NCBI RefSeq assembly: GCF_036241575.1
Contig: NZ_CP108455.1
Span: 1,260,501-1,324,500, forward strand
Source: Streptomyces sp. NBC_01267
GTDB taxonomy: Bacteria; Actinomycetota; Actinomycetes; Streptomycetales; Streptomycetaceae
Direction: 5' to 3'
Length of the DNA stretch: 64,000 nt
Of the stretch, positions 5,341-33,884 are shown piece by piece (within the stretch, counting starts at the first letter, position 1; each line of letters opens with the position of its first letter). Both the position numbers and the translations under genes were made by a program. Below the pieces are notes generated by a model. The model did not search any database. It had not been told where the DNA came from and was given only the letters and a program-made list of their open reading frames with translations.

Positions 5341-6477
5341 CTATTTCAGGTGGGCCGGAGTACCCACGGGCAGGATAAATCGGAATTCGGCGCCGCCGCC
5401 GGGCCCGCGGCCCACGGTGATCGTCCCGCCGTGCGCCTCGATGATGCCCTTGACGATGTACAGGCCGAGCCCGGTCCCACCGCGTTTGCTGCCCCGCCAG
5501 AACCGGGTGAAGACACGGCTCATCGACTCCTCGGGGATACCGGGGCCTTCGTCGGTCACGGTGACACCCGTTCCCTTCTCGTCGTCCTTCGCGGCGGCCG
5601 GCGCCACCTCGATGGTGACGGTTCCCTCGCCGTGGCGCACCGCGTTTTCCAGCAGGTTGCCCAGCACCTGGTCGACCTTGTCCGGGTCCGCCCACAGATC
5701 GGGCAGCGGCTGCTGGATGCGGACCACGAACCGGTCGGGGTCCTGTCCGGACGCGGTGTGTGCCTGGATGTGCCGGTCCACTGCGGCGCCGATGTCCACC
5801 GGCTGGCGGCGCAGCTCCAGGCGGCCCGAGTCGATGCGGGAGATGTCGAGCAGCTCGGCGATCAGCCGGGTCACGCGGTTGGCGTCGGCGTCGACGGTCT
5901 CCAGCATGAGCCGCTTCTGGGCGTCGGTGAAGCGCTCCCATTTGGCGAGCAGGGTCGCGGTGAAGCCTTTGACCGAGGTCAGCGGGGAGCGCAGTTCGTG
6001 CGCGACGGTGGCTATCAGCTCGGCGTGGCTGCGCTCGGTGCGCCGCCGGGCCTCGGTGCCCCGGAGCGAGATCACCAGCCGCCGCACGGGCCCGGTGGGG
6101 TGCTCCCGTATGTAGCGTGCGGAGACCAGCACCTCCCGGCCGCCGGGCAGGAGCAGATTGCGCTCGGGCTGTCCGTGCCGGATGGCGAGTCCGCCGTACG
6201 GATCGGTCAGCGTCCACCAGCGGCGGCCCTTGAGGTCCTCCAGGGGCAGCGCCTGCTCCAGCGGGGAGCCGAGTGCGGCTTCCTTCGGTACGGCGGTGAT
6301 CCGTGCGGCGGCGGTGTTGAAGCAGACGACCCGGCCGTTCTCGTCGGCGACGACGAGGCCGTCGGGCAGGTCGTCCGGGGCCACGCCCTGGTACGCCTGT
6401 ACCTCGCCCGGTCCGCCGTACCCGTCCGGTGGCGATCCGTGTCCGTGCGCCGACGTACTGTCCGCTGAGACGGCCAT
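5341..6477 (-). CDS. Orphan PAS-type sensor histidine kinase
   Basis: This 378-residue, apparently soluble kinase has no convincing membrane segment. A PAS-like domain occupies about 30-135. A HisKA domain has the H-box IATVAHELRSPLTSVKGF with His160 as predicted phospho-acceptor. The HATPase core shows the N-box GNLLENAVRHGEG, the G1 box DEGPGI, the F region and the G2 box GGTGLGLYIV, so all catalytic motifs are intact. No response regulator lies beside it; it sits between an rRNA methylase and pheST, all co-directional. Signal and partner are unknown. Confidence 0.9.
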   Translation of the reverse strand: MAVSADSTSAHGHGSPPDGYGGPGEVQAYQGVAPDDLPDGLVVADENGRVVCFNTAAARITAVPKEAALGSPLEQALPLEDLKGRRWWTLTDPYGGLAIRHGQPERNLLLPGGREVLVSARYIREHPTGPVRRLVISLRGTEARRRTERSHAELIATVAHELRSPLTSVKGFTATLLAKWERFTDAQKRLMLETVDADANRVTRLIAELLDISRIDSGRLELRRQPVDIGAAVDRHIQAHTASGQDPDRFVVRIQQPLPDLWADPDKVDQVLGNLLENAVRHGEGTVTIEVAPAAAKDDEKGTGVTVTDEGPGIPEESMSRVFTRFWRGSKRGGTGLGLYIVKGIIEAHGGTITVGRGPGGGAEFRFILPVGTPAHLK

Positions 6478-26064: not shown

Positions 26065-26092
26065 TTGGTCAGTTGTGCGGACAACTGACCAA
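26065..26092. promoter_or_regulatory. 12-bp inverted repeat overlapping the sigK -35 element
   Basis: TTGGTCAGTTGT at 26065-26076 is exactly repeated in inverted form at 26081-26092 (4-nt centre). Its right arm shares CCAA with the -35 element at 26089-26095. A bound repressor would block the promoter. Alternatively it is a hairpin ending read-through from the left. Confidence 0.5.
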
Positions 26093-26118
26093 TCCGTGCC
26101 GTCCACGGCTCCGAATAG
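26089..26118 (+). promoter_or_regulatory. SigK-type promoter of sigK-rskA
   Basis: CCAATCC (26089-26095), 15-nt spacer, CCGAATAG (26111-26118). The -10 is identical to the published mycobacterial SigK -10 as I recall it, and the same element occurs upstream of the fasciclin gene and the lipid operon. It places transcription about 40 nt before the sigK start, so sigK is probably autoregulated. Confidence 0.75.
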
Positions 26119-26166
26119 TGACCGGGAACCCACATGCCCCCTGTCCGCACCATGGAGGAACGTCGC

Positions 26167-26751
26167 GTGAAAGAAGCCGTGCACATCAGCGGAGCCGCCT
26201 CGGCCGGCCCTGATCTGCAGCAGTTGCTCGCCCAGGTCGCGCGTGGGGACCAGGACGCCTTCTCGCGTCTGTACGACGCCGTGTGCGGCCCCGTTCTCGG
26301 GCTGGTGCGCACGGTGCTTCGTGACCCCGCCCAGTCGGAGGAAGTGGCCCAGGAAGTACTCCTGGAGGTGTGGCGCACCGCGGCCCGTTTCCGTACCGAC
26401 CGCGGTTCCGCGATGAACTGGGTGCTGATGCTCGCCCACCGCAGGGCGGTCGACCGGGTGCGCTCCGCCCAGGCCGCGTCGGACCGCGAGCACAAAGCCG
26501 CCCTGCTGGACCGGACACCTGCCTTCGACGAGGTCACCGAGCAGGTGGAGGCCCGGCTGGAACGGGAACAGGTACGGCGCTGCATGGGCTCTCTCACCGA
26601 GGTGCAGCGCGAGTCGGTGACGCTCGCGTACTACCGGGGGCTCGCCTACCGGGAAGTGGCCGAGCTGCTCTCCGTACCACTCGGCACCATCAAGACTCGA
26701 CTGCGCGACGGACTCATCCGGATGCGCGACTGCCTGGGGGTCAGCGCATGA
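26167..26751 (+). CDS. sigK: ECF RNA polymerase sigma factor, SigK type
   Basis: This 194-residue group 4 sigma factor has region 2 (about 18-85, QDAFSRLYDAVCGPVLGLV to FRTDRGSAMNWVLMLAHRRAVDRVR) and region 4 (about 140-190, LTEVQRESVTLAYYRGLAYREVAELL then GTIKTRLRDGLIRMR). The GTG at 26167 sits 8 nt after GGAGG. Its gene overlaps rskA by 4 nt. SigK assignment rests on the paired RskA, on the nearby homologues of M. tuberculosis Rv0449c-Rv0446c and MPT83, and on the matching promoters. It is predicted to drive those units. Confidence 0.9.
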   Translation: MKEAVHISGAASAGPDLQQLLAQVARGDQDAFSRLYDAVCGPVLGLVRTVLRDPAQSEEVAQEVLLEVWRTAARFRTDRGSAMNWVLMLAHRRAVDRVRSAQAASDREHKAALLDRTPAFDEVTEQVEARLEREQVRRCMGSLTEVQRESVTLAYYRGLAYREVAELLSVPLGTIKTRLRDGLIRMRDCLGVSA

Positions 26752-27497
26752 TGACGGCGGATCTGCACACGCTCACCGGCGCGTACGCGCTCCACGCACT
26801 GGAGCCGGACGAGCGCGCCGCGTTCGAGGAACACCTCCGGGCGTGCCCGGCCTGCACCCAGGAGGTGGACGAACTGATCGCCACCGCGGGCAGGTTGGGA
26901 CTCGCCGTCACGGTCACCCCGCCCCCCGCTCTCAAAGTACAGGTCATGCGGCGGATCGCCACCGAGCGGCAGGAGGCGCCACTGTTGCGGCGGCACTCGC
27001 GTGGCGGTGGCGCCCGCGGTGGGCGCGCACTGTCGCGCTTCGCGCTGGCCGCCTGCCTGGCCGCCGCCGTCGGCTTCGGCGGGATCGCGGTGTGGCAGCA
27101 CCAGGAGGCGGGCGACGCGAGGACCAGCGCGGCACGGTCCGAACAGCAGGCCCAGGCGCTGGCCTCGGTGCTCGCCGCCCCGGACGCGAAGGTCACCACG
27201 GGGAAGCTGAAGGGCGGCGCGACCGGCACGGTCGTGGTCTCGCACAGCAGGAACAAGGCGGCGTTCCTGGCATCCGGACTGCCGAAACCGCCGAGCGGCA
27301 AGACGTATCAGCTCTGGTTCGACGACCACGGCACCATGCGCTCCGCCGGTCTGCTGAATTCGGCTTCCGCCGCGGCCGGGACGGTCCTCGACGGCCCGGT
27401 GGACTCCGCGCAGGGCATGGGCCTCACGGTCGAACCGGCGGGCGGTTCGGCGGCCCCGACCACCGCTCCCCTCGCGCTGATGACGTTCTCCGCCTGA
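26748..27497 (+). CDS. rskA: Anti-sigma-K factor RskA
   Basis: This 249-residue single-pass membrane protein has a cytoplasmic anti-sigma domain with the zinc-binding ZAS pattern His29-x3-Cys33-x2-Cys36 (EEHLRACPAC). One membrane helix (about 95-117) precedes an extracytoplasmic RskA domain containing FLASGLPKPPSGKTYQLWFDD. It should sequester SigK until cut by regulated proteolysis. The ATG overlaps the sigK stop (ATGA), giving coupled synthesis. In mycobacteria the site-2 protease Rip1 completes RskA cleavage. The S2P gene at 56 kb here is of another subfamily. Confidence 0.9.
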   Translation: MMTADLHTLTGAYALHALEPDERAAFEEHLRACPACTQEVDELIATAGRLGLAVTVTPPPALKVQVMRRIATERQEAPLLRRHSRGGGARGGRALSRFALAACLAAAVGFGGIAVWQHQEAGDARTSAARSEQQAQALASVLAAPDAKVTTGKLKGGATGTVVVSHSRNKAAFLASGLPKPPSGKTYQLWFDDHGTMRSAGLLNSASAAAGTVLDGPVDSAQGMGLTVEPAGGSAAPTTAPLALMTFSA

Positions 27498-27513
27498 GCC
27501 CGGGAACGTACGG

Positions 27514-27553
27514 CACGGGGGGCCTGCCCGGTCGGCCGGGCAGGCCCCCCGTG
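27514..27553. terminator. Bidirectional terminator between rskA and the lipid operon
   Basis: Perfect 18-bp stem (27514-27531 with 27536-27553) and a 4-nt loop, between the convergent stops of rskA and the DUF1295 gene. Confidence 0.85.
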
Positions 27554-27563
27554 GTCCGTGATC

Positions 27564-28367
27564 TCAGCTCCGCTTCGGCGGGAGTGGGAAGAAGCCGCTG
27601 GTACGCGCCGTGTACGCGGCGAAGCCGGGCCGGTCGGCCATGTGCCGCTCCAGGAGCCGTTTTCCGCTGCCGCCGATCAGCAGGAAACTCATGACCAGCG
27701 GGCTGACCACGGTCACGGCGGCCACCACCGGGTCGTCACAGACGATCAGGAAAAGCCCCCACCAGACACAGAAGTCACCGAAGTAGTTGGGGTGCCTGGT
27801 CCAGGACCAGAGGCCGCGGTCCATGATCCGGCCACGGTTCGCGGGATCGGCCTTGAACCGGGCCAGCTGCCGGTCCCCCACCGCTTCGAAGAGCAGACCG
27901 GTCAGCCAGAGCACGCACCCGGCGTAGCCGGCGGGCCCCAGCTTCCCCGGCAGGTACATCGCGGCCTGCACCGGCAGCGAGACCAGCAGGACCAGCAGGC
28001 CCTGGAGCAGATAGACCATACGCAGCGCGTAGAGGTTCCGGTGGCCCGGCGCCCTGGCGAGCATCGCCTCGTACCGGGCGTCCTCGCCGTGGCCGCGCCC
28101 GCGGAGGGCGATGTGCACGGCGAGCCGCAGCCCCCACACGACGGTCAGCACGGTCACCAGGAGCCGCCGTACGCCGTCGCCCTCCCCCGCCGACACGGCG
28201 TACGCGACGAGCGCCACCGCCGCGAAGGCCGCGCCCCAGGCGATGTCGACGATCCGGTGCAGTCCCCTGGCGACGGCGAGGGCGAAGGTGAGGAGCATGA
28301 CGGTGAGCGCGGTGGCCGCGGCGGCGCCGACGCCCTGGCCGAACGCCCCCCACGGGTAGCCGTTCAC
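27564..28367 (-). CDS. DUF1295 membrane protein (steroid 5-alpha-reductase-like), Rv0446c homologue
   Basis: This 267-residue integral membrane protein has about six helices. The C-terminal RGLWSWTRHPNYFGDFCVWWG motif is typical of DUF1295 and isoprenylcysteine methyltransferase/steroid reductase folds, where it binds a nucleotide cofactor. A reductase step on a modified fatty acyl chain would fit its place in the operon (inference). The GTG at 28367 overlaps the stop of the upstream methyltransferase (GTGA). It is the last gene of the five-gene operon and faces rskA. Confidence 0.85.
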   Translation of the reverse strand: MNGYPWGAFGQGVGAAAATALTVMLLTFALAVARGLHRIVDIAWGAAFAAVALVAYAVSAGEGDGVRRLLVTVLTVVWGLRLAVHIALRGRGHGEDARYEAMLARAPGHRNLYALRMVYLLQGLLVLLVSLPVQAAMYLPGKLGPAGYAGCVLWLTGLLFEAVGDRQLARFKADPANRGRIMDRGLWSWTRHPNYFGDFCVWWGLFLIVCDDPVVAAVTVVSPLVMSFLLIGGSGKRLLERHMADRPGFAAYTARTSGFFPLPPKRS

Positions 28368-29668
28368 CGCCGGGCCCTCTCGTACCACTCCCCCGGGGTG
28401 GCGGGCATCCCGCTGCGGCCGCCGTCCCCGGGCCGTACCGCGAGGAGTTGGTCGACGCCCATTCTGCGTTCCTCGAAGGCCAGTCGGCCGCCCGCCAGGT
28501 ACAGCCGCCAGACCCGGGCGGTCTCCTCACCGACCAGCGCGCGGAATTCCTCCCAGCGCTTCTCCAGGGTGTCCTGCCAGGCGGCGACCGTCCGGACGTA
28601 GTGCTCACGAAGGGACTCCACGTGCCGCACTTCGAGCCCCGCGCCCTCCAGCAGCGAGACCGTCTCTCCGAGCGGGCGCATGTGCATGTCAGGCGCGATG
28701 TACGCCTCGATGAACGCGCCGCCGCCGGGTGCGACAGCGCCCCGGGACATCTGCTGGACCAGTACCCGGCCCTCCGGACGGAGCATCCCGTACAGCGTGG
28801 CGGCGAAGCCGGGGTACTCGGCGTCGCCGACGTGTTCGCCCATCTCGACCGTGGACACCGCGTCGTAGTCGCCTCCGTGGATGTCGCGGTAGTCGCAGTG
28901 GCGTACCTCGACCAGCTCGGTCAGTCCCCGTTCCTCGACCTGGCGCCTGACGTGCTCCGCCTGCTCCCGGGCGAGGGTGACGGCGGTGACCCTCGCCTTG
29001 TACTCCTGCGCGGCGTACAGGGTGAGCGATCCCCAGCCGCAGCCGATGTCCAGCAGCCGTGATCCGGGCTCCAGTTGAAGCTTGCGGCAGATGAGTTCCA
29101 GCTTGTCGCGCTGGGCGTCGGCCGGACCGTATCCGGGGTCGTCGCTCGTCCAGTACCCGCAGGAGTACGCCATCGTCCCGTCGAGCAGCAGCGCGTAGAA
29201 GTCGTTGGAGAGGTCGTAGTGGTGGCTGATGGCCGCCCGGTCCCGGGCCTTGCTGTGCAGGGCACCGCGCAGCCGGGCCTCGGCGGCCGGTGCGGCGGGG
29301 CGCGGGCCGAGCGCCCCGAGGCGGAGCGCGGTGCGTACGGCGCGGGCCCGGTCGCCGACGGTGAGCTGCGGCGGGCGCAGCCCACGGGTGCGTACCGCGC
29401 CCCACACCGTACGCAGCCCGTCGGCGAGATCGCCCTCGATGTCGAGCTCACCGGTGATGTATGCCTGGGCCAGGCCGAGTTCGTCGGGCTGCCAGACGAG
29501 CCGCCGCAGTGCCCGGCGCGAGCGCAGGACGACCAGGGGCGCGCCCGCGGGACCCGCGGTGGTGCCGTCCCAGGCGCGCAGGCGCAGCGGGAGCCGCCCG
29601 CCGAGTAGTTGTTCGGCGAGCGGGAACAGCTGCTGAGCAGCGCCGGTCCGCGTCTGAAGGCGCGTCAT
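28364..29668 (-). CDS. Second cyclopropane-fatty-acid-synthase-type methyltransferase
   Basis: This 434-residue SAM-dependent enzyme acts on unsaturated acyl chains of phospholipids. The N-terminal CFA domain (about 1-140) precedes the HHYDLSNDFYALLLDGTMAYS signature and the SAM site LLDIGCGWGSLT. YDAVSTVEMGEHVGD and QQMSRG lie in the catalytic half. It is the extra methyltransferase compared with the M. tuberculosis sigK operon, which has one. The ATG at 29668 overlaps the ufaA1-like stop by 4 nt. It may add a different branch (methyl, methylene or cyclopropane). Confidence 0.9.
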   Translation of the reverse strand: MTRLQTRTGAAQQLFPLAEQLLGGRLPLRLRAWDGTTAGPAGAPLVVLRSRRALRRLVWQPDELGLAQAYITGELDIEGDLADGLRTVWGAVRTRGLRPPQLTVGDRARAVRTALRLGALGPRPAAPAAEARLRGALHSKARDRAAISHHYDLSNDFYALLLDGTMAYSCGYWTSDDPGYGPADAQRDKLELICRKLQLEPGSRLLDIGCGWGSLTLYAAQEYKARVTAVTLAREQAEHVRRQVEERGLTELVEVRHCDYRDIHGGDYDAVSTVEMGEHVGDAEYPGFAATLYGMLRPEGRVLVQQMSRGAVAPGGGAFIEAYIAPDMHMRPLGETVSLLEGAGLEVRHVESLREHYVRTVAAWQDTLEKRWEEFRALVGEETARVWRLYLAGGRLAFEERRMGVDQLLAVRPGDGGRSGMPATPGEWYERARR

Positions 29669-30972
29669 CGGGAGGTCTCCTTGGTCAGCAGCAGTTGCTG
29701 CACATCGAGATAGCCGGATCGGAAACCCGCTTCGGAGTAGGCGAGATAGAAGGTCCAGAGCCGCCGGAAGGTCTGGTCGAAGCCGAGGGCGCCGACCTCC
29801 GGGGCCTGTTCCTCGAAGCGTTCGCGCCAGAGCCTGAGGGTTTCCGCGTAGTGCGGCCCGAAGCCCTCGCGCCCCCGGACGCGCAGCGCCGTGCGTTCCG
29901 TGGTGATCTGCTCGATCGCCTCGGACGAGGGCAGCAGTCCGCCGGGGAAGACGTACTTCTGGATCCAGGTGAAGGTGTTCTTGCTGGCGAGCATCCGCTC
30001 GTGCGGCATGGTGATCGCCTGGAGGGCGATGCGGCCGTCCGGCGCGAGGAGCCGGTCCAGGATCATGAAGTACTCCGGCCAGAACTCGGCGCCCACGGCT
30101 TCGATCATCTCGACGCTCACGACCGCGTCGTACTCCCCGACGACCCGGCGGTAGTCGAGGAGTTCGACGGTGACCCGGTCCTCGAAACCCGCATCGCGGA
30201 TCCGCTCCACGGCCAGCTGCCGCTGCTCCTGGGAGAGCGTCACGGTGTGCACCCGGGCGCCGCGTCCGGCGGCCCGGACGGCCAGCTCGCCCCATCCGGT
30301 GCCGATCTCCAGGAGCCGGGTGCCGGGGCCGACCCGTGCCTCGTCGAGCAGCCGGTCGATCTTGCGGTGCTGGGCGGCGGCCAGCAGGGACCGGTCGGCG
30401 GGGAAACCGCGGAAGAGCGCGGAGGAGTACGAGAGCGTCTCGTCGAGGAAGAGGGCGAACAGGTCGTTCGAGAGGTCGTAGTGGTGACGGATGTTCTCCC
30501 GTGACCCCTCGGGGGTGTTGCGCTGTGCGGCGGGCTGTTTCCTGGCCCAGAGGGCGCGCAGCTTCTGCAGCGGCGCGGGGATCAGGCTCGCGGCCCGGTC
30601 GGCCAGCACGGTCAGCACACCCACCAGGTCGGTGGCCGACCACTCGCCCGCCATGTAGGACTCGCCGAAGCCGATCAGGCCGCCCGCGCCGATCCGCCGG
30701 AAGAACGCCTTCGGCTCGTGCACGTCGAGTACCGGACCGCCGAGCCCCAATGTTTCGGTGGTCCCGAGACGCACCCGGAGTTCGAGCCCGGACAGTGCCC
30801 GCCGGACGATCCGCTCAGCGAGGGCCGTACGGAGCCACGAGGCGCGGGGCAGCCGCGCCACATCGGGCCAGCGGACGGCGTCGACCGCCGCACGCGGGCA
30901 GGTCGGCGGGGTGGTCGCGGACCCGGGTGATCCGGGTGATCCGGGAGACGCCGGGGAGACGGACACACTCAC
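29665..30972 (-). CDS. ufaA1: UfaA1-type fatty acyl methyltransferase
   Basis: This 435-residue CFA-family enzyme reads very close to mycobacterial UfaA1 (Rv0447c): GLIGFGESYMAGEWS, RHHYDLSNDLFALFLDETLSYSSALF, SAM motif LLEIGTGWGELAVRAA, VVSVEMIEAVG, and the C-terminal YLAYSEAGFRSGYLDVQQLLL. UfaA1 is reported to make 10-methyl (tuberculostearic-type) acids. The GTG at 30972 overlaps the DUF1365 stop (GTGA) and gives a short Ser/Pro/Gly-rich N-terminus; longer frames run through the upstream gene. Confidence 0.9.
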   Translation of the reverse strand: MSVSVSPASPGSPGSPGSATTPPTCPRAAVDAVRWPDVARLPRASWLRTALAERIVRRALSGLELRVRLGTTETLGLGGPVLDVHEPKAFFRRIGAGGLIGFGESYMAGEWSATDLVGVLTVLADRAASLIPAPLQKLRALWARKQPAAQRNTPEGSRENIRHHYDLSNDLFALFLDETLSYSSALFRGFPADRSLLAAAQHRKIDRLLDEARVGPGTRLLEIGTGWGELAVRAAGRGARVHTVTLSQEQRQLAVERIRDAGFEDRVTVELLDYRRVVGEYDAVVSVEMIEAVGAEFWPEYFMILDRLLAPDGRIALQAITMPHERMLASKNTFTWIQKYVFPGGLLPSSEAIEQITTERTALRVRGREGFGPHYAETLRLWRERFEEQAPEVGALGFDQTFRRLWTFYLAYSEAGFRSGYLDVQQLLLTKETSR

Positions 30973-31691
30973 TTCACGCCCTCCTGGGACTGGTGACGGG
31001 GACGGGGCCGGACGGGCAGCCCCCGCAGATAGAGCCATATGCCGTGTACCCGGATCGCGAGGGAGACGGCCATGGTGGACCACGGATGGCGGAGCGCCGC
31101 CAGCAGCAGGACGGCGGTGGTGGCGGGCCTGCGCTCGCCGCGCACGGTCGCCGTGAAGGGGCGGGTGCCGTTCCGTTCCAGCTGGACCGTGAGGTTCAAC
31201 CGGTCGTCGGGCTCGGGCAGTCGCATCCGGTAGTCGCCGTCCACCGGGAAGAACGGCGAGACGTAGAACTCCTTCTCCACCACGTCCCGCCCCGCGGTGT
31301 CGGGACGGAGCAGATAGCAGTGCCGTTCCCCGTAGGTGTTGTGCACCTCGGCGACGACGCAGAGCGGCCGGCCGTCGGCGTCGCGGCACCAGTAGACGGT
31401 GAGCGGGTTGAAGACGTGTCCCAGGACCCGCGCGTGCGCGAGCATCAGCACGCTGCCACCGGTGAGGTCGACTCCCCGGGCGGCCAGGAACCTGTCCAGA
31501 CCCGCCCTGATGGTCCGGTCACCGCCGCCGAAGTGGTCGCGGCCCTCGAACCGGGCGAGCGGACGCAGCGGGTACGGCAGCCGGGGCGGCCGGTCGGGGT
31601 CGATCAGCCACATGTAGGTGTGGTGGTGCAGGGTGTGCCGCACGGGCGCGGTCCGCACGTGGGTGATCGTGGACGGATAGACGGCGTTCAC
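30969..31691 (-). CDS. DUF1365 protein, Rv0448c homologue
   Basis: This 240-residue protein matches the DUF1365 family: VRHTLHHHTYMWLIDPD, the conserved LMLAHARVLGHVFNPLTVYWC, EVHNTYGERHCYLL, and VEKEFYVSPFFPVDGDYRMR. DUF1365 genes are regularly linked to an FAD oxidoreductase and CFA-type methyltransferases, including in proteobacterial singlet-oxygen-response operons, but the reaction is unknown. The GTG at 31691 overlaps the upstream oxidoreductase stop by 4 nt. A hydrophobic stretch near the end (AVSLAIRVHGIWLYLRGLPV) may attach it to membrane. Confidence 0.88.
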   Translation of the reverse strand: MNAVYPSTITHVRTAPVRHTLHHHTYMWLIDPDRPPRLPYPLRPLARFEGRDHFGGGDRTIRAGLDRFLAARGVDLTGGSVLMLAHARVLGHVFNPLTVYWCRDADGRPLCVVAEVHNTYGERHCYLLRPDTAGRDVVEKEFYVSPFFPVDGDYRMRLPEPDDRLNLTVQLERNGTRPFTATVRGERRPATTAVLLLAALRHPWSTMAVSLAIRVHGIWLYLRGLPVRPRPRHQSQEGVK

Positions 31692-32959
31692 CACATCACC
31701 CCCAGCGCTGCCGCCGCCTCGGCGCCCGAGCGGCAGCCGTCCTCGTGGAACCCCGCGCCGTGGTAGGCCCCGGCGTATGCGGTGACCGGGCCGTTCAGCT
31801 CGGGCAACAGGCGCTGCGCGGCCACCGATTGGACGGTCTGGACCGGGTGTTCGTACACCATGCGGTCGAGCACCTGGGCCTCGTCGATCAGGTCGGAGCC
31901 GTTCAGGGTGACCAGATAGGTCTCGGGGGCGTCGAGGCGCTGGAGGCGGTTCATGTCGTAGCTGACCTGCACGCGGTCGGCGCCGCTGGAGCACTGCGGC
32001 ATCAGGTAGTTCCAGGAGGCGCGGGCCCCGGGGCTGCGGGGCAGCACCGAGGTGTCCGTGTGCAGCAGGGTGGGGTTGCGCGAGTAGCGGAAGGCGCCGA
32101 GCAGTTCGGTCTCCCGCGCGGTGGGGTCGGCCAGTATCCGGAGCGCCTGGTCGGGGTGCACGGCTATGACCACCGAGTCGTACCGCGCGGTGCTCCCGCC
32201 GTCCGTGGTGAGTTCGACACCGTCCTCGGTACGGCGCACGCTGCGGACCGGGGTCGAGGTGTGCAGTGCGGTGAGTTCCTTGCCGACCCGCTCGACGTAG
32301 GTACGCGAGCCGCCGGTGACCGTGCGCCAGGTGGGGGATCCGGTCACCGCGAGCATGCCGTGGTGCGCCAGGAAGCGGAAGAGCGGGACCGCGGGGTGGC
32401 CCAGCGCGGTGGTGGGGTCGCAGGACCAGACGGCCGAGACGAGCGGCGTCATGAAGTGCGAGACGAAGTACGGGGAGAAGTCACCGCGGGCGAGGAACTC
32501 GCCCAGTGTCAGCCGCCCGGCGCTGCCGGGCGCGGCGAGCACCTGCCGGGCCCTGCGGTGGAAGCGGGGCACCTCGGCGAGCATCCGCAGATAGCGGGCG
32601 CGGAAGAGGTTGCGCGGCTGGGCGAGGAGGCCCGGCAGGCCGCGCGCACCGGCGTATTCGAGTCCGCACCCCTCGCACCGTACGGACATGCTCATCTCCG
32701 ACTCCTGGGTGGTGACGCCGAGTTCGGCGAAGAGCCGGAGCAGCAGCGGATAGGTGCGCTCGTTGTGGACGATGAACCCGGAGTCGACCTGGTACACCCG
32801 GCCGTCGGCCGACGCCAGGTCGTGGGTGTGGGCGTGACCGCCGAGCCGGTCGTCCGCCTCGTACAGCGAGACCTCGTGTGCGCGCCGCAGGACGTGCGCG
32901 GCGGTCAGCCCCGCGATTCCGCTTCCCACCACTGCCGTCCGACGCCTCTGGTCCGCCAT
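31688..32959 (-). CDS. FAD-dependent amine-oxidase-type oxidoreductase, Rv0449c homologue
   Basis: This 423-residue flavoprotein has the dinucleotide-binding fold AVVGSGIAGLTAAHVL at the N-terminus. LYEADDRLGGHAHTHD, a CxxC pair in VRCEGCGLEYAG and a C-terminal FAD contact AYAGAYHGAGFHEDG also appear. Homologues are annotated as NAD/FAD-binding proteins or desaturase-like, and the likely role is redox chemistry on acyl lipids with the following methyltransferases. The ATG at 32959 has GGAGGGAG 7 nt upstream; the GTG at 32989 has a poorly spaced site. It leads the operon under a SigK-type promoter. Confidence 0.9.
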   Translation of the reverse strand: MADQRRRTAVVGSGIAGLTAAHVLRRAHEVSLYEADDRLGGHAHTHDLASADGRVYQVDSGFIVHNERTYPLLLRLFAELGVTTQESEMSMSVRCEGCGLEYAGARGLPGLLAQPRNLFRARYLRMLAEVPRFHRRARQVLAAPGSAGRLTLGEFLARGDFSPYFVSHFMTPLVSAVWSCDPTTALGHPAVPLFRFLAHHGMLAVTGSPTWRTVTGGSRTYVERVGKELTALHTSTPVRSVRRTEDGVELTTDGGSTARYDSVVIAVHPDQALRILADPTARETELLGAFRYSRNPTLLHTDTSVLPRSPGARASWNYLMPQCSSGADRVQVSYDMNRLQRLDAPETYLVTLNGSDLIDEAQVLDRMVYEHPVQTVQSVAAQRLLPELNGPVTAYAGAYHGAGFHEDGCRSGAEAAAALGVMW

Positions 32960-33002
32960 GCCGCTCCCTCCGGAAGTCATTTCGGGCACCGCCCCTCACC
33001 AG

Positions 33003-33032
33003 GCATTCGGGGCCACTGCCCCTGGGGATTGG
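33003..33032 (-). promoter_or_regulatory. SigK-type promoter of the lipid-modification operon
   Basis: On the minus strand: CCAATCC (33032-33026), 15-nt spacer, CCGAATGC (33010-33003). The -35 and spacer length equal those of the other two sites. The -10 differs only in its last two bases. Predicted 5' leader is about 37 nt. Confidence 0.7.
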
Positions 33033-33066
33033 TCCCTCACTCGATCGGATGAGGGGCCCGTCCGGA

Positions 33067-33096
33067 CCAATCCGCGGGCACACCGGCCCCGAATAG
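33067..33096 (+). promoter_or_regulatory. SigK-type promoter of the fasciclin lipoprotein
   Basis: CCAATCC (33067-33073), 15-nt spacer, CCGAATAG (33089-33096). It is divergent from the lipid-operon promoter, with 34 bp between the two -35 elements. The predicted leader is about 135 nt. Confidence 0.75.
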
Positions 33097-33239
33097 CCGT
33101 CGTGAGTGCACTTCGGAGAGCTGAGGCCGCCCCGGGCGGACAGATCACCGGTCGCGCGACGCCCCGCGTCGCGGCGGCTCACGCCGTGGTGCCCCGACCC
33201 CTTCGGCCGCTGTACGTAAACCCCTTCAAGGAGACCTTC

Positions 33240-33884
33240 ATGAACACCTTCCGCTTCCCCCGTGTCGCCCTCGTCGTCGCGGGTGCGGTCGTGCTGCCGC
33301 TGGCGCTGTCCGCCTGTTCCAGCGACAGCTCGAAGGACAGCTCCAAGGACAAGTCGGACAGCAAGCCCGCCAGTTCGGCTTCGGCGCCCAAGTCCGACGC
33401 CATGGACACCAGCAAGCCCTTCGGGCCGGGCTGTGCCACCGTGCCGAAGAGCGGTGCGGGCAGCTTCAACGGCATGGCCCAGGACCCGGTCGCGACCGCC
33501 GCTTCGCACAACCCGGCGCTGTCCACCCTGGTGACCGCCGTCAAGAAGGCCGGTCTGGTCGACACGCTCAACAACGCCCAGAACATCACCGTGTTCGCGC
33601 CGACCAACGATGCCTTCGACAAGATCCCGAAGGCCCAGCTGGACAAGGTGCTGGCTGACAAGGCGATGCTGACCAAGATCCTCACCTACCACGTGGTGGG
33701 CCGGAAGCTCGCGCCGAAGCAGCTGGAGAACGGCTCGTACCCGACCCTGGAGAAGGGCACGCTCACCACGGCGGGCTCCGGTGTGTCGTACAAGGTCAAC
33801 GACGTGTCGAGCGTCGTCTGCGGCAACGTCCCGACGTCCAACGCCACCGTCTACATCGTCGACACGGTGCTGATGCCGAAGTAA
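33240..33884 (+). CDS. Fasciclin-domain lipoprotein (MPT83/MPT70-like)
   Basis: This 214-residue lipoprotein has a signal peptide ending in the lipobox LSAC (Cys26). A Ser/Lys/Asp-rich linker precedes one fasciclin (FAS1) domain (about 75-214) with GLVDTLNNAQNITVFAPTNDAF and ILTYHVVGRKL. MPT83 and MPT70, the major SigK targets of the M. tuberculosis complex, are proteins of this kind. The ATG at 33240 has AAGGAG about 7 nt upstream. The SigK-type promoter and adjacency to the lipid operon support the same regulation. Function is probably surface adhesion or lipid binding. Confidence 0.9.
   Translation: MNTFRFPRVALVVAGAVVLPLALSACSSDSSKDSSKDKSDSKPASSASAPKSDAMDTSKPFGPGCATVPKSGAGSFNGMAQDPVATAASHNPALSTLVTAVKKAGLVDTLNNAQNITVFAPTNDAFDKIPKAQLDKVLADKAMLTKILTYHVVGRKLAPKQLENGSYPTLEKGTLTTAGSGVSYKVNDVSSVVCGNVPTSNATVYIVDTVLMPK

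Follow-up and report, generated by a model that had tools for sequence, protein, structure and literature searches.

SigK-type promoters probably join sigK-rskA, a membrane-lipid operon and a fasciclin lipoprotein gene in a small Streptomyces regulon

In a 64,000-nt stretch of the genome of Streptomyces sp. NBC_01267 (contig NZ_CP108455.1, positions 1,260,501 to 1,324,500; hereafter the window), the motif CCAATCC-N15-CCGAAT precedes sigK, which encodes an extracytoplasmic function (ECF) sigma factor, a divergent operon of putative membrane-lipid genes beginning with that of a flavin adenine dinucleotide (FAD)-dependent protein, and a gene encoding a fasciclin-domain lipoprotein. Taken together, the comparisons presented here make it very probable that these three sites are the promoters of one SigK-class ECF factor governing a small lipid and surface regulon. 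Judged by its genes and promoters, the locus represents, in Streptomyces, the SigK/RskA regulon already known from other bacteria; the regulon is real and ancient, and akin to the SigK system of mycobacteria. PMC7509140, citing Veyrier 2008, describes SigK sites as conserved in Actinobacteria, and regulons of this type have likewise been reported before.

An earlier note on this DNA had proposed the three sites and a constant spacing, and both could be read directly: the matches are exact at 26089 (+), 33032 (−) and 33067 (+), with a spacer of 15 nt in each case. With up to two mismatches allowed, the window holds only one other match, at about 6473–6474 (+). The genome-wide scan that the note had suggested as a check returned four exact and four one-mismatch matches in 8,069,363 bases, against none for the backward control motif, and three of the four exact sites fall in this cluster. 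The proposed set of three has to be widened, for the genome holds further candidates (C1:629242, exact; C1:7583066, one mismatch). Across 150 Streptomyces genomes, 159 exact sites were found in 94 genomes and the backward control matched once, so that the motif occurs far above chance. The core conserved across species is CCAATCC-N15-NCGAAT. Species differ at the first position of the -10, a C here, and at the two positions behind CCGAAT, so the -10 octamer CCGAATAG given by the note is over-specified, its terminal AG not being conserved. As to the contrast it drew between CCAATCC and the mycobacterial -35 CCATCC, loci of the same class, probably from relatives of mycobacteria, carry CCATCC-N15-CCGAAT, in which the -35 departs from (C)CAATCC by one base when aligned on N15.

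Phylogenetic footprinting, with at most two mismatches to the site tolerated, was carried out on 80 loci (78 from Streptomyces, one from Actinacidiphila and one from a Streptomycetaceae bacterium), among which L009 hardly differs from the window. A site precedes sigK in 79 of these loci, 78 of them with a spacer of 15, while Markov shuffles gave 9/400. The FAD gene is present in 50 loci, one of which (L072) was dropped for want of upstream DNA; in the remaining 49, a site was found before the FAD operon in 48 (shuffles 4/245) and on the divergent side in 43 (shuffles 10/245). Because the loci are related to each other, these counts do not represent independent events. As in a SigK regulon, SigK-type promoters thus lie before both sigK and target genes and are conserved across species. 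That the three matches reflect chance or local duplication is extremely improbable: the two divergent sites do sit in imperfect inverted repeats (31 nt, 81% complementary), but such an origin is contradicted by the shuffles, the whole-genome controls and the cross-species conservation, which rule it out as far as sequence allows.

The sigma factor itself belongs to the expected class. Among 24 SigK-family matches in the genome at E <= 0.001, one alone exceeds the NF007228 cut-off of 226 (292.6 bits), the next best scoring 93.5, and this genome encodes one SigK-class sigma factor. Its Cys144 and Cys194 align with Cys133 and Cys183 of Mycobacterium tuberculosis SigK, so that it combines a match above the family cut-off with the two cysteines of ECF18/ECF19-type SigK. 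According to PMC7509140, M. tuberculosis SigK belongs to ECF18, full activation requires the two cysteines, and 94% of ECF18 and 56% of ECF19 members conserve them. Both redox cysteines are found in 80/80 SigK proteins of the Streptomyces set. In a wider sample of the phylum (296 genomes, of which 42 encode a protein above the SigK-family cut-off, with 40 stretches surrounding these genes compared), they occur in 18 of the 40 proteins, always both or neither, and SigK keeps both in all eight loci with a FAD or DUF1365 gene. RskA, encoded next to sigK, has the RskA_C domain (PF10099) and N-terminal anti-sigma domains (PF22618, PF13490) of its family; its N-terminus, HTLTGAYALHAL, resembles the motif HTLAGAYALDAL of the AS19-1 anti-sigma type, which is tied to ECF19 (PMC7406223). 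There are three possible starts for sigK (ATG 26134, ATG 26152 and GTG 26167), and translation may begin at GTG 26167, which is preceded by GGAGGA, rather than at ATG 26152. A perfect 12-bp inverted repeat (26065–26092) overlaps the sigK -35. Considered as an operator, it was set aside: it is kept in the near-identical L009, no conservation was seen across the remaining upstream regions compared, and because of this lack of conservation in other species it is perhaps a strain-specific operator or hairpin.

Promoter use of the motif can also be judged from a gene that the window locus lacks. Many relatives have a molybdo-oxidoreductase gene (PF00174, as assigned on the remote copy of this genome) that separates the fasciclin gene from the divergent promoter. 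It was found within the stretch in 38 of the 80 loci; the motif was found upstream in 33 of these, each with the start codon 5 nt (once 6) behind the -10 octamer. Furthermore, in additional genomes a start codon lies 5–6 nt after the octamer at 13/13 molybdo-oxidoreductase sites against 6/73 other sites. As the start codon occupies the expected position of the transcription start, the mRNA is probably leaderless, and this spacing is independent support for the predicted promoter use of the motif. The ATG of the window's fasciclin gene is preceded by an AAGGAG of its own, and the in-frame GTG that follows the octamer (Table 1) resembles a leaderless start left over from a molybdo-oxidoreductase gene since lost. 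A remote copy is located 6.3 Mb away (C1:7581468-7583057) behind CCAATCC-N15-CCGAAG (C1:7583066), with a GTG 6 nt later, and most likely belongs to the regulon; the relative G317 has a remote copy with the same promoter arrangement. A FastTree tree, whose support values were not examined, groups the remote gene with other remote copies, in a clade that branches from within the sigK-locus copies, a topology compatible with relocation and with old duplication alike. The enzyme occurs in some form in the 21 genomes compared, G357 giving weak matches alone (best E 4e-11). In G317 (L224), the molybdo-oxidoreductase gene is divergent from an rskA-like gene, with a SigK-type site on both sides.

The motif is not confined to such loci. 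Other Streptomyces were surveyed through 80 regions around sites among the matches listed, a non-random choice comprising 88 oriented sites, 82 of them distinct once overlaps were removed. The first downstream gene encodes a molybdo-oxidoreductase at 13 of these 82 sites, SigK at nine, an RskA-like protein at six, a fasciclin protein at four and a FAD protein at two, with one site before the open reading frame (ORF) of L001. The other 47 precede genes for DUF4331 proteins (18), zinc-finger anti-sigma factors (14), secreted proteins with a possible wall anchor (4) or hydrolase-like proteins (3), classes named from Pfam matches of one example each, as well as six single genes and, in two cases, no good ORF. 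The same promoter core was seen in L172, L170 and others before DUF4331 secreted-protein and zinc-finger anti-sigma genes. In these other Streptomyces, such sites apparently belong to further SigK-like regulons; as far as these comparisons reach, the motif is a group-level one that marks SigK-like systems in general and is not exclusive to SigK across the genus. DUF4331 was rejected as a member here, the upstream DNA read of its gene holding no such site. The fourth exact site (L001, C1:629242-629269), 83 nt upstream of a 231-aa ORF, is a weak candidate for a regulon promoter. The near-matches at C1:4343202 (inside a long ORF), C1:1266974 (the one at about 6473–6474 of the window, pointing away from adjacent minus-strand genes) and C1:7491275 (no ORF passing the filter) were discarded as promoters, and those at C1:3429783, C1:4311405 and C1:4366570 were likewise not taken as such.

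Several of these observations weigh against a dedicated SigK regulon. Elsewhere in the genus, paralogous systems use the motif, SigK paralogues exist, and some genomes such as G182 have several SigK-class factors; many of the 40 phylum stretches with SigK-like factors show no such site before sigK; all exact sites but one lie in a single 7-kb cluster, and the fourth precedes an ORF with a homologue in 1/40 other genomes (G317, one of whose two copies has the site); finally, the lipid product is deduced from homology and gene order. One may then ask whether the sites, as genuine ECF-type promoters, are recognised in vivo by a different sigma factor or by more than one. The abundance of DUF4331 and anti-sigma genes behind the motif (for the latter 14 sites, plus the six matched by rskA), the multiple SigK-class factors of genomes like G182 and the 24 family matches of this genome all speak for it, but a single one of those 24 clears the cut-off, the sites adjoin its gene, and the DUF4331 gene of this genome showed no such site in the upstream DNA read, which leaves this explanation quite unlikely. 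The reading of the sites as SigK-type promoters of a lipid and surface regulon, put forward in the earlier note, is thus retained on account of the footprinting, the single SigK-class factor and the genome-wide rarity, with the reservation that the motif alone, found as it is before DUF4331 and anti-sigma genes and alongside SigK paralogues elsewhere, does not name one regulon.

Table 1. Features of the sigK locus (window coordinates)
Feature	Position	Strand	Basis or remark
SigK-type promoter of sigK-rskA, CCAATCC-N15-CCGAATAG	26089..26118	+	exact match, conserved; autoregulation predicted
sigK, ECF sigma factor	26152..26751	+	NF007228 292.6 bits, cut-off 226; best PDB match 4nqw (SigK), E 4.1e-46
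rskA, membrane anti-sigma factor	26748..27497	+	RskA_C PF10099, RskA_N PF22618, zf-HC2
DUF1295 membrane protein, last operon gene	27564..28388	-	PF06966 238 bits
CFA2, second CMAS-family methyltransferase	28364..29668	-	PF02353
CFA1, first CMAS-family methyltransferase, ufaM-like by position and similarity	29665..30972	-	PF02353
DUF1365 protein, ufaO-like	30972..31691	-	PF07103 228 bits
FAD-dependent amine-oxidase-family protein, ufaD-like, first operon gene	31688..32959	-	PF01593
SigK-type promoter of FAD/DUF1365/CFA/DUF1295 operon	33003..33032	-	exact match; 48/49 loci at <=2 mismatches
Palindrome TCACTCGATCGGATGA, 16 bp, candidate regulator-binding site	33037..33052	.	4 bp from FAD-side -35, 14 bp from fasciclin-side -35
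SigK-type promoter of fasciclin gene (most relatives: molybdo-oxidoreductase, then fasciclin)	33067..33096	+	exact match, conserved
GTG, in frame with fasciclin gene, 5 nt after -10 octamer	33102..33104	+	read in sequence
Fasciclin-domain lipoprotein, MPT70/MPT83-like	33240..33884	+	PF02469; best PDB match 1nyo MPT70, E 3.7e-35

The gene families of the divergent operon and their order fit those of UfaD, UfaO and UfaM, and the operon resembles ufaD-ufaO-ufaM, which serves the synthesis of furan fatty acids and in proteobacteria runs under RpoE/ChrR; its product would most likely be methyl-branched or furan fatty acids, and we hold the chance of a furan-type lipid to be about even. In Azospirillum B510, a FAD-DUF1365-CFA set (CFA standing for a cyclopropane fatty acid synthase-type methyltransferase) adjoins genes for an ECF factor and for a member of the ChrR family (TIGR02451, 192 bits, cut-off 124.5), and identities, taken against these ChrR-linked Azospirillum proteins and not those of Rhodobacter sphaeroides, amount to 44.8% for the FAD protein, 43.7% for CFA1, 34.1% for CFA2 and 33% for DUF1365. 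A relative of CFA2 more than 50% identical occurs in 33 of the 50 loci with the FAD gene. With somewhat less than an even chance, the operon could instead make 10-methyl or cyclopropane fatty acids, for which mycobacterial UfaA1 offers an example, the FAD and DUF1365 proteins performing another step. This would agree with the match of both methyltransferases to cyclopropane-synthase models, albeit below the equivalog cut-offs, and with the low identity of DUF1365 to its ChrR-linked relative, but is countered by the identical gene order beside the ECF-ChrR pair of Azospirillum B510 and by the sufficiency of UfaM, UfaD and UfaO, the latter a DUF1365 protein, for furan fatty acid synthesis in R. 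sphaeroides, as given in PMC7380195. A full-text literature search for "furan fatty acid" and "SigK", with sources seen in part, found none joining both in Actinobacteria. A FAD-DUF1365-CFA set was also seen on a Salinivibrio plasmid (L261), behind genes for a MerR-type regulator, a photolyase, an NTF2-like protein and an SDR protein. On the opposite side, the fasciclin gene is the only one in this genome, and its product matches 1nyo over residues 61–213 and has a lipobox, LSAC, as in MPT70/MPT83-type proteins.

Between the two divergent promoters lies a palindrome (consensus TCAYYCGATCGRRTGA), which suggests a candidate site for a second regulator adjusting the effector genes but not sigK, and apparently an undescribed second control site. 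In 38 of the 43 loci with both divergent sites, the -35 elements are 33–34, 44–46 or 55–57 apart, and the better half-site is within one mismatch of the consensus in 29 of the 43, against 9/860 shuffles; as the consensus was drawn from the loci on which it was tested, only position and specificity count as semi-independent. The competing view, in which the palindrome is no activator site but serves repression, bends the DNA, acts like an UP element or is shared by ancestry without any function, comes close to an even chance without quite attaining it. It gains from this shared origin of consensus and test set, from the relatedness of the species, from the absence of the palindrome in L130 (6 mismatches) and from its degradation in many loci with 55–57 bp gaps. 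What opposes it is the fixed distance from the palindrome end to the outward -35, which is 4 bp in 26/43 loci and 14–15 bp in 14/43 (the other three differ), two offsets one helical turn apart that are kept while the spacers vary. Furthermore, half-sites with at most one mismatch occur at 11/19 effector sites and 0/63 other distinct sites, and the composite of half-site, 4 bp and CCAATCC has a single occurrence in each of 8 genomes out of 101 (control 0), always beside a molybdo-oxidoreductase, FAD or fasciclin gene. The perfect palindrome is present once in this genome (control 0); its three one-mismatch copies (C1:1944369, C1:3228339, C1:7851855) have, by eye, no clear regulator gene beside them.

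Comparison with known systems helps to situate this locus. It shares with mycobacterial SigK/RskA (sigK-rskA, mpt70, mpt83) both protein families, both cysteines, an MPT70-like protein and, in loci of the same class, a near-identical N15 promoter, but differs by its -35, CAATCC instead of CCATCC, and by the addition of the molybdo-oxidoreductase and the palindrome. Mycobacteria-like loci in the phylum sample, probably from relatives of mycobacteria, carry the same class of site as CCATCC-N15-CCGAATAN. L130 has CCATCC-N15-CCGAATAG and a divergent site pair, with the FAD, DUF1365, CFA, DUF1295, sigK and rskA genes in one direction; whereas its sigK is contained in that single run, in the window sigK has its own promoter and the lipid operon diverges from the fasciclin gene. 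The Streptomyces SigK-like paralogue systems with DUF4331 have the same promoter core with N15 but other targets, and this genome is without a second SigK-class factor. In the R. sphaeroides RpoE/ChrR singlet-oxygen regulon, PMC7380195 and PMC7074977 likewise put FAD, DUF1365 and CFA-type methyltransferase genes under an ECF factor and an anti-sigma factor, yet the sigma/anti-sigma pair and the promoter are different and identities (to the Azospirillum B510 relatives) are 33–45%. For R. capsulatus RpoE/ChrR, PMC7074977 describes a SigK/RskA-like pair induced in photo-oxidative stress, but its table gives "No homolog" there for RSP_1091 and RSP_1090.

In the mechanism that we propose, the membrane anti-sigma factor RskA would hold SigK until a redox or photo-oxidative signal switches the system on. 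Active SigK would then transcribe its own sigK-rskA operon and, from the two divergent promoters, the membrane-lipid operon (FAD, DUF1365, one or two CFA-type methyltransferases, DUF1295) and the gene of the surface fasciclin lipoprotein; the remote molybdo-oxidoreductase, with its presumed leaderless SigK-type promoter, would most likely respond as well, and a second regulator at the palindrome may tune the effectors and not sigK. Such a regulon probably remodels membrane lipids under oxidative stress. Circumstantial evidence for the signal comes by analogy from the light induction of mpt83/mpt70 homologues in Mycobacterium kansasii (PMC9861118) and the lowering of RskA abundance by UV in a soil actinobacterium (PMC8965627), along with the photo-oxidative induction in R. 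capsulatus. A bolder and rather doubtful proposal is that SigK/RskA in Streptomyces is the actinobacterial counterpart of RpoE/ChrR, a redox or light switch for furan-type lipids, a molybdo-oxidoreductase and a surface lipoprotein resembling MPT70; a second regulator, bound to the palindrome, would gate the effectors but not sigK.

If this were true, mycobacteria would retain in their SigK regulon a relic of one and the same membrane-protection programme. According to PMC7509140, it is unknown what signal the SigK regulon answers to and what purpose it serves; a compact Streptomyces version joined to furan-fatty-acid-like genes makes both questions testable in a harmless organism that is easy to work with. 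The leaderless start codon allows the transcription start to be predicted to the single base, and from the palindrome one would expect a second regulator, open to fishing.

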